Shown here: positions 59,480 through 64,000 of the stretch, piece by piece
Layout: each line of letters starts with the position of its first letter
Position numbering within the stretch: position 1 is the stretch's first letter
Assembly (NCBI GenBank): GCA_015058955.1
Contig: SVBJ01000007.1
Coordinates: 1-64,000 of the forward strand
Reading direction: 5' to 3'
Source: Erysipelotrichaceae bacterium
GTDB lineage: Bacteria > Bacillota_I > Bacilli_A > Erysipelotrichales > Erysipelotrichaceae
DNA length: 64,000 bases
Program-made: the position numbers and the translations under genes
The notes under the pieces: generated by a model
The model's database searches: none
Seen by the model: the letters and a program-made list of their open reading frames with translations, nothing else
What the model was told of the DNA's origin: nothing

Positions 59480-61219
59480 TTGTTCAGACTAGTCAGAAAA
59501 TATACCAAACAGTTTACTGTGGCAGCCTTACTGGCACCTTGTCTGGTAATAATGGAGGTCATCCTTGAACAGTCTATTCCAAAAGTAATGACTGAAATAA
59601 TCGACAGGGGAATCAATGGTCCCAACGGATCGGATCTTGTCCTGATTTCGGCTTTGGGAAAGAAAATGGTCATCCTGTCCGTTGCCGCAATGATAGTAGG
59701 CGCCGCTTCCGGCATACTGTCAGCCTTCGCTTCCAGCGGATTCATTCACAACATCAGAGAAGCCATGTACAGAAAAACTCAGAAGTTCAGCTTCAAGAAC
59801 ATGGATAAGTTTGAGGTTCCTTCTCTGGTGACCCGTATGACCAAGGACATGAGAGAATTCCGCATGGCATATCTTTCAATCGTAAGAATGCTGGTAAGAT
59901 CACCGATGCAGCTGATAACGGCTACCTTCATGGTCTTCAGCATCAACAGCGATCTGGGAAAGGTTTTCCTGGTAGCTTTGCCGGTCTTGGGAATTGGCCT
60001 GTATCTGATTTCGCATTACGCTCATCCGCGCTTCAGAGTACTGATGAGAAAATTCGATAAGATGAATGGAGCACTGGAAGAGAACTTTGTTGCCATCAGA
60101 GTAGTGAAGACCTTCGTCAGGGAACAGTTCGAGAAAATCAAGTTTGACCGTACCTCGCAGGATGTTCTCAAGCAACAGAGATTTGCGGAATCACTGGTTC
60201 TGCTTAACTCACCGCTGTTTAACCTGGTAATGTATGCCTGCATGATCGCTGTTGCCTGGTTTGGGGGCAATCACATTATTGCCGGAAACATGACTACCGG
60301 TGAATTCATGAGCTTTTTATCTTATCTGAGATCCATTCTGTTCGGATTGATGATGCTGTCAATGGCTCTGATGCAGATCATCTTTGCTCAGGCAGCAGTT
60401 GACAGAGCCAATGAGATCCTGGATGAGCCTATCGATATTACTGATGACGGCAATGATCCTGATCTGGTTCCGGAAGACGGCTCGGTTGTCTTCAGCAATG
60501 TCAGCTTCAAATATACTGAAGAAGCCCGCAAGAATGCTCTTACCGATATTGATCTGACGATCAGATCCGGTGAGACCGTCGGCATCATCGGTTCGACCGG
60601 TTCCGGCAAGACCACGCTGGTTCAGTTACTGCCGAGACTCTATGATGTCACGGAAGGTGAGGTTCTGGTTGGCGGACATGACGTCAGGGAATACAAGCTG
60701 GAAAATCTCAGAAAAGATGTAGCCATGGTTCTGCAGAAGAACGTTCTGTTCTCCGGAACCATTGAAGAAAACCTGAAATGGGGCAACCTCAATGCCACGC
60801 ACGAAGAAGTGGAAGAGGCAGCCAGATGTGCCCAGGCCCACGATTTCATATCTTCCTTCCCGAAGGGATATCAGACTGAACTGGGACAGGGCGGTGTCAA
60901 CGTTTCCGGCGGCCAGAAGCAGAGATTGTGCATTGCCAGAGCCCTGCTCAAGAAACCTAAGATCATCATCCTTGATGACTCCACCAGTGCGGTAGATACC
61001 GACACTGACAAGAGAATAAGAAAAGCACTGAAGGAAAGACTGGCTGGCATGACGACCATCATCATTGCTCAGCGTGTCGCTTCCGTCATGGATGCCGACA
61101 AGATCATCGTCATGAAGGACGGCATGATCCAGAACATCGGCACTCATGAACAGCTGCTTAAGACCAATGAAGAATACCATGACTTATATGTCACACAAAT
61201 GCAGGGGGTGAGTGAATAA
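59480..61219 (+). CDS. ABC exporter half-transporter A (TMD-NBD)
   Basis: A 579-residue half-transporter: six membrane helices over about residues 15-310, then an NBD with Walker A GSTGSGKTTLVQ (about 374-385), signature VSGGQKQRL and Walker B IIILDDSTSAVDT, where the Glu after the Walker B Asp is Asp. That substitution marks a site that hydrolyses poorly, as in heterodimeric exporters like BmrCD, LmrCD and TM287/288. The start is TTG (59480) after GGAAAGGGGG. It overlaps the next gene by one base (TAATG). Confidence 0.92.
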   Translation: MFRLVRKYTKQFTVAALLAPCLVIMEVILEQSIPKVMTEIIDRGINGPNGSDLVLISALGKKMVILSVAAMIVGAASGILSAFASSGFIHNIREAMYRKTQKFSFKNMDKFEVPSLVTRMTKDMREFRMAYLSIVRMLVRSPMQLITATFMVFSINSDLGKVFLVALPVLGIGLYLISHYAHPRFRVLMRKFDKMNGALEENFVAIRVVKTFVREQFEKIKFDRTSQDVLKQQRFAESLVLLNSPLFNLVMYACMIAVAWFGGNHIIAGNMTTGEFMSFLSYLRSILFGLMMLSMALMQIIFAQAAVDRANEILDEPIDITDDGNDPDLVPEDGSVVFSNVSFKYTEEARKNALTDIDLTIRSGETVGIIGSTGSGKTTLVQLLPRLYDVTEGEVLVGGHDVREYKLENLRKDVAMVLQKNVLFSGTIEENLKWGNLNATHEEVEEAARCAQAHDFISSFPKGYQTELGQGGVNVSGGQKQRLCIARALLKKPKIIILDDSTSAVDTDTDKRIRKALKERLAGMTTIIIAQRVASVMDADKIIVMKDGMIQNIGTHEQLLKTNEEYHDLYVTQMQGVSE

Positions 61220-63096
61220 TGAGCGAACCTAAATACCGTCAGCTCAGACGTTCCAGAGCTGATAACATTCCTGCAACTGTTGCCAGAATATTCAGCTATC
61301 TGAGTCAGTTCAGATGGCAGCTGATCCTGGTATTTGTCTGCATTATCATTGAAGCACTGACAAACGTGGCTTCAAGTGCCTTCTTTGCTCCGCTGATCGA
61401 CGATTACATTCTGCCATTGGTTGGCAAGAGCAATCCTGATCTGAGCCGTTTCATCGGCCGACTGATCTTCATGGGCTGTGTCTATGTGCTGGGCATCACT
61501 GCCGGATACGTATACCGCAAGATGATGAGCATCATTTCAACCGGTACGCTGTATAACATCAGAAAGCAGCTGTTTGAGCACATGCAGGAAATGTCCGTAC
61601 AATTCTATGACACCAATACCCATGGCGAACTGATGAACTTCTACACCAATGACGTAGACATCATCAGACCGCTGATTGCGGATTCCTTCCCGCAGGCCAT
61701 CAACACCCTGATATCACTGTCAGGATCAATGTTCATGATGCTGAAGCTTTCACCGAAGCTTACCCTGGTAGCGGTGGCTCTGCTGGTACTGGTAGTGGGA
61801 ATGTCGGTATTCATCGGCAAGAAGTCCAGAAGCTACTTCGTCAAGGTTCAGAAGTCCGTTTCCAACATCAATGGTTACGTTGAGGAAATGTTCTTGGGCT
61901 CCAAGGAAGTCAAGGCCTTCTGCTATGAAGATGAAAGTGTCAGAAAATTCCAGAAATACAATGATGAGTGCATGCACGCATCAATAATGTCCAACGTCTT
62001 TGCCCAGTCTCTGATGCCTATCAACGTCAACCTGTCATACATCAGCTATGCTGCCGTTGCCGTTCTGGGTGCCAGAATGTGCATTGCCGGTGAGATCTCC
62101 TTAGGTTCAATTGCCAGCTTCCTGCTGTACACCAGACAGATTGCCGGACCTATCTCCGGACTGTCACAGCAGTTCAACGGCATGATGATGTCAATTGCCG
62201 GTGCCGAGAGAGTATTCGGCATAATTGATTCCGAACCGGAAGTCGATGAAGGAAGGATCACACTGGTAAATGTTGAAGAAGGAAAGGACGAACTGGTTGA
62301 AACCTCTGAAAAGACGGAAAGATATGCCTGGAAGAACCCGGATGACGGCTCACTAGTCGAACTGAAGGGTGACATCAGACTTAACCACGTAACCTTTGCC
62401 TACGAGGAAGGCAAGACCGTACTCCATGACGTGTCGCTGTATGCCAAGCCGGGTCAGAAGATCGCCCTGGTAGGTTCTACCGGTGCCGGCAAGACCACCA
62501 TCACCAACCTGATCAACAGATTCTATGATGTTCAGGAAGGATCGATCACCTATGACGGCATTGACATCAGAAACATTGCCAAGAGTTCACTGAGAAAGTC
62601 TCTGGGTGTTGTTCTGCAGGATACCAACCTGTTCTCCGGAACGGTAATGGAAAACATCAGATACGGTAACCTGGAGGCAACTGACCAGCAGTGCATTGAG
62701 GCAGCCAAGCTGGCCAATGCCGACGGTTTCATCAACAGACTGCCTGACGGTTATAACACCATGCTCACCAGCAACGGCACCAACCTGTCCCAGGGACAGA
62801 GGCAGCTGCTCAACATTGCCAGAGCCACGGTCGCTGACCCTCCGGTACTGATCCTTGATGAAGCTACTTCATCAATCGATACCCATACCGAGAAGATCAT
62901 TGAAAAGGGCATGGACAAGCTGATGCAGGGCAGAACGGTCTTCGTCATTGCCCACCGACTCTCAACGGTCAGAAATGCCAATGCCATCATCGTTCTGGAG
63001 CACGGCAACATCATTGAACGCGGTGACCACGAAGAACTGCTGGCGCAGAAAGGTCGCTACTACCGGTTATACAAGGGTACAGCTGAACTGGACTAA
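61219..63096 (+). CDS. ABC exporter half-transporter B (TMD-NBD)
   Basis: A 625-residue partner half-transporter with six membrane helices (about residues 30-330), a longer linker with acidic and Lys-rich stretches (about 350-385), and an NBD with Walker A GSTGAGKTTIT (about 418-428), signature NLSQGQRQLLN and Walker B VLILDEATSSIDT with the catalytic Glu present. With the neighbour that lacks that Glu, this predicts a heterodimer with one competent ATP site. The cargo is unknown: multidrug, lipid or peptide. Followed by a terminator. Confidence 0.92.
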   Translation: MSEPKYRQLRRSRADNIPATVARIFSYLSQFRWQLILVFVCIIIEALTNVASSAFFAPLIDDYILPLVGKSNPDLSRFIGRLIFMGCVYVLGITAGYVYRKMMSIISTGTLYNIRKQLFEHMQEMSVQFYDTNTHGELMNFYTNDVDIIRPLIADSFPQAINTLISLSGSMFMMLKLSPKLTLVAVALLVLVVGMSVFIGKKSRSYFVKVQKSVSNINGYVEEMFLGSKEVKAFCYEDESVRKFQKYNDECMHASIMSNVFAQSLMPINVNLSYISYAAVAVLGARMCIAGEISLGSIASFLLYTRQIAGPISGLSQQFNGMMMSIAGAERVFGIIDSEPEVDEGRITLVNVEEGKDELVETSEKTERYAWKNPDDGSLVELKGDIRLNHVTFAYEEGKTVLHDVSLYAKPGQKIALVGSTGAGKTTITNLINRFYDVQEGSITYDGIDIRNIAKSSLRKSLGVVLQDTNLFSGTVMENIRYGNLEATDQQCIEAAKLANADGFINRLPDGYNTMLTSNGTNLSQGQRQLLNIARATVADPPVLILDEATSSIDTHTEKIIEKGMDKLMQGRTVFVIAHRLSTVRNANAIIVLEHGNIIERGDHEELLAQKGRYYRLYKGTAELD

Positions 63097-63104
63097 CGCA
63101 TATT

Positions 63105-63137
63105 AAAACGCCATTTCCAACGGGAAATGACGTTTTT
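63105..63137. terminator. Bidirectional intrinsic terminator
   Basis: AAAACG..CATTTCC, loop AACG, GGAAATG..CGTTTTT with one interruption, between the exporter and the convergent VanY-like gene. Confidence 0.8.
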
Positions 63138-63150
63138 GTTTTGCGTCTGA

Positions 63151-64000
63151 TTAGTGTTCAATGAACAGATAATAGTATTCTTCGTAACACCAGTTGAACT
63201 TCTTTATTATCCTGGCAGCATCGGTACCGACATATCTGTACTGATAATCGTTGGCAGCGTATCCGGTCAGGTAATCCTTATCCTTTGGATAGCGGAGAAT
63301 GAAGCCGTAATCCTGACAGTTCTCCTTAACCCATTTACAGGCAGCAGTCTCATCAAAGTCATAGGCTATGGTGCCTTTTTCCGTGATGCTGACAGCCAAT
63401 CCGGTCTGATGTTCGTCACAGCCTTCCTTGCCCATGATGCGGTCAAGTTCGGCAGCATTGCCATCCAGCTGAGCCAGGCGGTTCTCATAGAGTACTTTCT
63501 GGTCGTCATAGCTGATGTAGCCGCTGTAACTGATGATAGGTGTTGAATGATCCTTGGAGTAGGCCTTGGCCATTTCCTCAAAGGCTTCCCTGGCTTCCTT
63601 TATCAGAGGTTCATTGGAGTCACGGTATTCACCGGCTATTTCCTCCAGATTTTCCGGAACATAGTCAGCCGGAAGTCTTCTTTCCTTGTTGACCAGTACG
63701 GTCAGCGGATCCGTTACGGTGATGGTCTTGCTGCTGTCATAGAAGTCTGAGTAATCGACACTGTCCGGAACATCGTAGTCATCGTTGATGTTGGCAATGG
63801 CAATGGCAGCTGAAGTCTGGTAACGGTTCATATGCCAGATGTAACGGGCCAGTCTTTCAAAGCGGAATCCTTCTTCCTGCAGCAACCCTTCAAAGGCCGG
63901 GAAGTAGGAGATGGTGCGGAAGGCGATGAAGTCTTCCGGTTCATAGTTGTTATAGAAGTATGCGAGAAACTGCGGTGAATAGCCTTTGGCAGCATAATCC
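63151..64000 (-). CDS. VanY-like D-alanyl-D-alanine carboxypeptidase homologue, degenerate, 5' end outside window
   Basis: A reading frame open to the window edge; 282 residues are visible and the true start lies beyond 64000. The last 160 residues follow the VanY (peptidase M15B) plan: DHSTPIISYSGYISYDDQKVLYENRL, the EHQTGLA motif (SxHxxGxA, here HQTGLAVS), WVKENCQDYGFILRYPKDKDYLTGY, and YQYRYVG. In active enzymes the motif is HxxGxAxD with a final E-x-x-H. Here the Asp is Ser, the Glu is Asn and the His is Gln, so two zinc ligands and the base are missing. It is unlikely to be an active peptidase and may bind peptidoglycan instead. Whether it has a signal peptide cannot be seen. Confidence 0.8.
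   Translation of the reverse strand, partial: DYAAKGYSPQFLAYFYNNYEPEDFIAFRTISYFPAFEGLLQEEGFRFERLARYIWHMNRYQTSAAIAIANINDDYDVPDSVDYSDFYDSSKTITVTDPLTVLVNKERRLPADYVPENLEEIAGEYRDSNEPLIKEAREAFEEMAKAYSKDHSTPIISYSGYISYDDQKVLYENRLAQLDGNAAELDRIMGKEGCDEHQTGLAVSITEKGTIAYDFDETAACKWVKENCQDYGFILRYPKDKDYLTGYAANDYQYRYVGTDAARIIKKFNWCYEEYYYLFIEH

Follow-up and report, generated by a model that had tools for sequence, protein, structure and literature searches.

Degenerate wall peptidases with regulatory roles are already known in the LytM/M23 family: EnvC, NlpD and SpoIIQ are mentioned among such proteins (PMC5053510), and the inactive LytM domain of DipM binds and stimulates autolysins (PMC10336132). The protein described here resembles Csd2 and DipM in that a LAS-type wall peptidase domain whose zinc site no longer works appears to be kept for binding or regulation; Csd2 in addition has a helical domain. 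Unlike them, it belongs to M15B/VanY and not to M23, and the site has been lost repeatedly at a single conserved gene position for which sister genera still have intact counterparts; partners are known for the LytM proteins, whereas none was found for the focal protein. The same domain occurs in the LD-carboxypeptidases LdcB/YodJ (structures 4ox3 and 4ox5; PMC4087270), and among characterised proteins LdcB is the nearest relative. According to the structural account of the Streptococcus pneumoniae enzyme (SpLdcB), the zinc ligands are His153, Asp160 and His207, Arg120 makes a salt bridge with the carboxylate of the substrate, the S1' site is formed in part by Ser151 and Gln125, Glu204 touches the substrate and acts indirectly in catalysis, and Trp206 takes part in an induced fit, moving up to 9 Å on binding (PMC4087270). 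Compared with LdcB/YodJ, the focal protein keeps the fold residues, the Gln and the first His, but has the Asp, the second His, the Glu, the Arg, the Ser and the Trp replaced and carries a long N-terminal region. Folds related to LAS/M15 also serve outside the wall: the N-terminal domain of Sonic Hedgehog, an animal protein, functions in signalling and not as a wall peptidase, although it keeps its zinc-coordination centre, unlike the focal protein.

The window, that is, the whole stretch of 64,000 nucleotides that was analysed (G000:C28:1-64000), is part of a contig of 81,206 bases, and the VanY-like gene extends beyond its end. The full gene occupies G000:C28:63154-64524 on the minus strand and encodes 457 amino acids; the C-terminal 282 residues and the stop codon fall in the window, and the first 175 residues lie outside it. 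The N-terminal part that the preliminary description lacked could thus be recovered from the contig, and its assignment of the region to the M15B peptidases proved sound: the Pfam VanY profile PF02557 matches with 83 bits (cut-off 25; E 2.1e-23), and the nearest solved structure by sequence is LdcB/YodJ 4ox3 (E 1.9e-27, aligned over residues 263-451). The NCBIfam LdcB, VanY and VanXY models also match, far below their cut-offs, and the protein does not qualify as a vancomycin-resistance protein, the best score being 89.8 of the 250 needed (vanXY), followed by 78.9 of 425 and 65.2 of 400. At the N-terminus a hydrophobic stretch reads as a signal anchor, and the approximately 250 residues between this anchor and the VanY domain gave no Pfam match at E up to 1. 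AlphaFold2 returned poor models both for the full-length orthologue of genome G008 (7 alignment rows, mean pLDDT 43.5) and for the window's own fragment (6 alignment rows, mean pLDDT 47.8).

The gene is the third of a conserved methyltransferase-RluA-VanY cluster, found in the same gene order elsewhere. We take the two upstream genes on the same strand, named by similarity, to be an RluA-type pseudouridine synthase and a SAM-methyltransferase. The VanY start shares one base with the RluA stop and is preceded by GGAG. Ahead of the methyltransferase gene lies a promoter-like site, although it is weak (7 such sites found against 4.2 expected in the region). The downstream side of the locus reads as follows:

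61219..63096, plus strand: ABC transporter subunit, the convergent neighbour and one border of the syntenic locus (open reading frame and synteny)
63112..63129, no strand assigned: terminator-like hairpin between the convergent ends of the VanY-like and ABC transporter genes (consensus match only; 5 found against 3.2 expected in the region)
63151..64000, minus strand: last 282 codons, with the stop, of the VanY-like, putative pseudopeptidase gene, which runs on to contig position 64524
63226..63606, minus strand: VanY (PF02557) domain, residues 307-433 (Pfam profile match)

Active-site positions were assigned by alignment with intact paralogues, with relatives and with the solved LdcB/YodJ structure 4ox3, together with the shared motifs:

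63514..63516, minus strand: I337, in place of the conserved Arg of Y-R-S (SpLdcB Arg120; alignment)
63415..63417, minus strand: D370, in place of the conserved Ser of S-E-H-Q (SpLdcB Ser151; alignment)
63409..63411, minus strand: H372, the first zinc-ligand His, kept (alignment including 4ox3)
63388..63390, minus strand: S379, in place of the zinc-ligand Asp, which is Asn in two congeneric orthologues (alignment including 4ox3)
63250..63252, minus strand: N425, in place of the catalytic Glu (SpLdcB Glu204; alignment including 4ox3)
63244..63246, minus strand: Y427, in place of the conserved Trp of E-P-W-H (SpLdcB Trp206; alignment)
63241..63243, minus strand: Q428, in place of the second zinc-ligand His, which is His in two congeneric orthologues (alignment including 4ox3)

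Six of the eight LdcB active-site positions are therefore changed, including three of the four zinc or catalytic residues, and only Gln342 and the first His remain. Where active M15B enzymes of the VanY-LdcB type have His, Asp and His as zinc ligands, the focal protein has His, Ser and Gln and its two congeners have His, Asn and His; the catalytic Glu is Asn, and the Arg (or Lys) next to the zinc, which binds the substrate carboxylate, is Ile, in all three proteins of the genus (g1). The preliminary description had read the Asp ligand as Ser, the His ligand as Gln and the base as Asn, with the His of HQTGLA kept: the alignment confirms all three substitutions and identifies that His as H372, the first zinc ligand, and it adds Arg to Ile (I337), Ser to Asp (D370) and Trp to Tyr (Y427).

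Two orthologues of the same genus occupy the same gene place. One is from G008 (JAFQZR010000024.1, Erysipelotrichaceae bacterium RGIG2297, goat duodenum; 80% identity to the focal protein) and the other from G003 (CAMOMM01, an uncultured Firmicutes; about 90% identity, the gene being split over two contigs). Both have H-N-N-H at the zinc and catalytic positions and share the Arg to Ile, Ser to Asp and Trp to Tyr changes, whereas the Gln for His and the Ser for Asp are particular to the window's genome (G000): the orthologues keep the second His and have Asn for the Asp. Because the degenerate state is common to both congeners, the loss of the site must predate the three species. A sequencing error or frameshift was considered as a source of the substitutions and rejected, since the reading frame is uninterrupted and the degenerate site is found in all three species. 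Further out, the zinc triad is present in 5 of the 7 members of the sister genus (g26), and the Glu is absent from all seven. The preliminary description had held that orthologues retaining the motif would speak against a pseudoenzyme, and this turns out to apply in part, as the nearest orthologues are without the motif and the counterparts in more distant genera, at the same place in the gene order, have the complete tetrad. Within the window's GTDB genus, the locus VanY is either degenerate (G000, G003 and G008) or cleanly absent (G001, G004, G005 and G007): in these last four, an ABC transporter gene similar to the window's comes directly after RluA, with no VanY between, and the VanY-like gene of this locus is thus dispensable in the genus.

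The locus can be followed through the family. Among 244 genomes of the family, the methyltransferase search found the gene in 222 at E up to 1e-60; it was found in 71 of 118 sampled genomes of the order, and a second family (f2) is entirely without it among the genomes listed. In the 126 genomes in which the locus was read, a VanY follows in 80 and none in 46 (a few of these being contig ends). H-D-E-H is kept in 37 of the 80 locus VanYs and not in the other 43, all of which have open frames; 43 of 80 is not a frequency, because the second sampling batch was aimed largely at genera in which degeneracy had been seen (in the first batch, for which genus g26 was taken whole, 20 of 45 were degenerate). 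Degenerate proteins make up 3/3 in g1, 7/7 in g26, 4/4 in g19, 7/7 in g60, 2/2 in g71, one each in g3 and g62, and 18/31 in g46; the intact ones come from g6, g18, g20, g21, g45, g48, g50, g52, g59, g63 and g68, plus the 13 others of g46. A zinc ligand is changed in 38 of the 43, while the other five, all from g26, change only the Glu of the tetrad; in 11 proteins Asp to Asn is the sole tetrad change, and this alone need not abolish metal binding. These 16 proteins, with a single change that may leave metal binding or activity, are best called degenerate and not proved dead.

The changes arose more than once. For the distribution of intact and degenerate sites, a tree built from methyltransferase and RluA (80 rows, 559 columns, IQ-TREE mixture model) requires 4 state changes (4-5 over bootstraps), 3 of them forced by branches with good support; a first, quicker tree likewise gave 4. 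For the zinc triad by itself, 6 changes are needed. A quick VanY-domain tree from which the active-site columns were removed (117 rows, 170 columns) needs 3 changes for the locus rows, with 2 forced by well-supported branches for the degenerate group. Both trees unite the focal trio and g26 in one group, with support of 100/100 (methyltransferase plus RluA) and 95 (VanY domain). We read these changes as losses, a direction inferred from the intact site being common to LdcB and nearly all other VanYs. As a control, the non-locus VanYs of relatives found with the focal protein have H-D-E-H in 35 of 37, with Glu to Lys in the other two (locus against non-locus, Fisher p 1e-7, a descriptive value only, since sampling and kinship are uneven). 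On the VanY-domain tree (117 rows, 170 columns), the division into locus and non-locus proteins itself needs 5 changes, with only 34 of 114 branches well supported.

Two observations concern VanYs away from the locus. In other genera, the non-locus VanYs L016:214-1545 (G016) and L032:1348-2580 (G009) have Lys at the catalytic Glu and no Trp, with the zinc triad kept, which makes them further candidate pseudopeptidases by their residues. In addition, G001, G005, G006 and G007 have a tandem VanY pair elsewhere in the genome (L045, L050, L049 and L046): the first copy has all active-site residues, and the second has H-D-E-H but Val or Ile for the Arg and Lys or Asn for the Trp, perhaps an early stage of such a loss.

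Erosion falls mainly on the active site. At columns conserved in 90% or more of the 37 intact proteins, degenerate proteins keep on average 37% at the eight active-site columns and 85% at 35 other domain columns (Mann-Whitney p 4e-5, columns and rows being non-independent). Among the 43 degenerate proteins the Trp is kept in none, the Asp in 6, the Glu in 12, the Arg in 18, each His in 20, and the Ser of S-E-H-Q and the Gln in 26 each, while G375, G407, R411, T420, G433, A437 and E449 are kept in all 43. Some non-catalytic columns are eroded too: S334 (15/43) and Y349, both numbered as in the focal protein, and K280 are each kept in under half of the degenerate proteins. In the N-terminal region common to the locus VanYs, G38, Y39, Y80, Y182 and Y228 are conserved in both the intact and the degenerate group. 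With the intact one included, the locus VanYs show 26 different tetrads, and such scattered residues do not resemble the one new constrained site that would be expected if the degenerate proteins were still enzymes, either with an altered metal site (made of H372, the new D370 and others) or hydrolysing a different bond. We find this quite improbable for the focal protein, which is without two of three zinc ligands and has lost the Arg, Ser, Glu and Trp together, even though H372 and Gln342 remain in it, G003 and G008 keep both His, and the Ser to Asp change, at the second position ahead of the first His, is found repeatedly, both in the focal trio and in G167/G179. A further ground for it lies in the five g26 members with an intact zinc triad, in which only the Glu of the tetrad is replaced and which may still be active, because SpLdcB E204A is described as keeping residual activity (PMC4087270).

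The sequences have nevertheless been held under constraint. The dN/dS ratio of the VanY domain, calculated by the Nei-Gojobori method with our own script for within-genus pairs with dS <1.6, is 0.100 (G000/G008), 0.096 (G000/G003) and 0.120 (G003/G008), indicating purifying selection. Degenerate pairs have a median of 0.154 (23 pairs, 0.036-0.469) and intact pairs one of 0.133 (22 pairs, 0.015-0.368), the pairs being non-independent and dS often near saturation; mixed pairs of one intact and one degenerate protein (n=8) have a higher median, 0.45, the pattern that a shift in constraint would give. The focal gene thus combines an open frame with purifying selection after the loss of catalytic residues, as a pseudoenzyme maintained by selection should. 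The earlier proposal of a pseudoenzyme that has lost its active site therefore gains support at the level of sequence, with six of eight positions changed, the changes largely common to the nearest orthologues, and purifying selection; for activity itself it stays a prediction.

The same data bear on relaxed selection after redundancy, by which other VanY genes would suffice and the protein would be a slowly decaying relic. PF02557 matches occur in every one of the 43 degenerate genomes, at least two in 41 of them, and the E-H-Q-x-G-x3-D motif in 37 of the 43 (in at least 35 of these it lies within one of the PF02557 matches outside the locus), as redundancy would require, but intact-locus genomes carry paralogues too (at least two PF02557 genes in 37 of 37). 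The clean gene loss in four congeners and the fast divergence of some degenerate pairs, with domain dN/dS up to 0.47, would also suit a relic. Yet the frames are open in 43 of 43, the closest degenerate pairs (dS <1) have dN/dS of 0.04-0.15, like intact pairs, and the fold residues are kept while it is mainly the active site that is lost, so that we consider decay unlikely.

The role suggested in the preliminary description, binding of peptidoglycan or regulation of a true peptidase, is plausible, given the further PF02557 gene in 41 of the 43 degenerate genomes. Paralogues could matter in another way, if the focal protein were the regulatory subunit of a specific active VanY of the same cell. 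G000 and G008 do each encode a further, long VanY protein whose H-D-E-H is intact and which in the window's genome carries three CWB2 domains (Pfam). It is encoded on a different contig from the locus gene in both genomes. In G171 (96% complete), the degenerate locus VanY (Y-E-Q-V; L161, G171:C27) is the only PF02557 match; with no other VanY match in that genome, regulation of another VanY cannot be a general rule. As paralogues are equally universal in intact and degenerate genomes, a paralogue as partner also finds no specific support there, and we judge such a subunit very unlikely. The intact CWB2-VanY paralogue is one of three adjacent genes of the window's genome for long, secreted-type proteins with similar repeats (L004:172-6947); the other two proteins look CWB2-like by eye only.

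We favour, with a probability of about 60% and judging from sequence, that the focal protein is a pseudopeptidase, anchored in the membrane and facing the wall, which works by binding or as a scaffold. The locus VanY probably does a job without need for catalysis, because its site is lost while selection keeps the protein, and because counterparts at the same position have lost their sites several times. The focal protein would be without carboxypeptidase activity, and either the old catalytic cleft or the N-terminal region could now bind something: a peptidoglycan stem peptide perhaps, or a protein partner, for instance an active hydrolase or synthase. Its role might then be that of a scaffold or regulator, in the manner of the degenerate LytM proteins; by analogy with Csd2 and DipM, it is most likely a binding or scaffold protein that descends from an LdcB-like enzyme. 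The neighbouring genes, apparently for RNA-modification enzymes, do not point to a wall function. Degeneracy arose at this locus on more than one occasion but seldom at others, so the protein probably had its non-catalytic job already while it was still an enzyme. A more tentative extension, which we hold at somewhat less than even odds, is that the locus VanY has an old non-catalytic function in the family, wall-peptide binding or partner docking, with peptidase activity an optional extra that was shed repeatedly.

The finding matters for annotation, in that a domain match alone says nothing on activity while tools report such genes as vanY-like resistance genes; the genome report of Bulleidia extructa, for example, gives four vanY-like resistance calls and no van clusters (PMC12786226). 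In searches of an open-access library we found no report of a VanY/M15B pseudopeptidase; the precedents for degenerate wall peptidases are those of the LytM/M23 family. With intact and degenerate orthologues at one locus, the family would allow binding to be separated from catalysis in a natural experiment and offers a clean test of a non-catalytic role.
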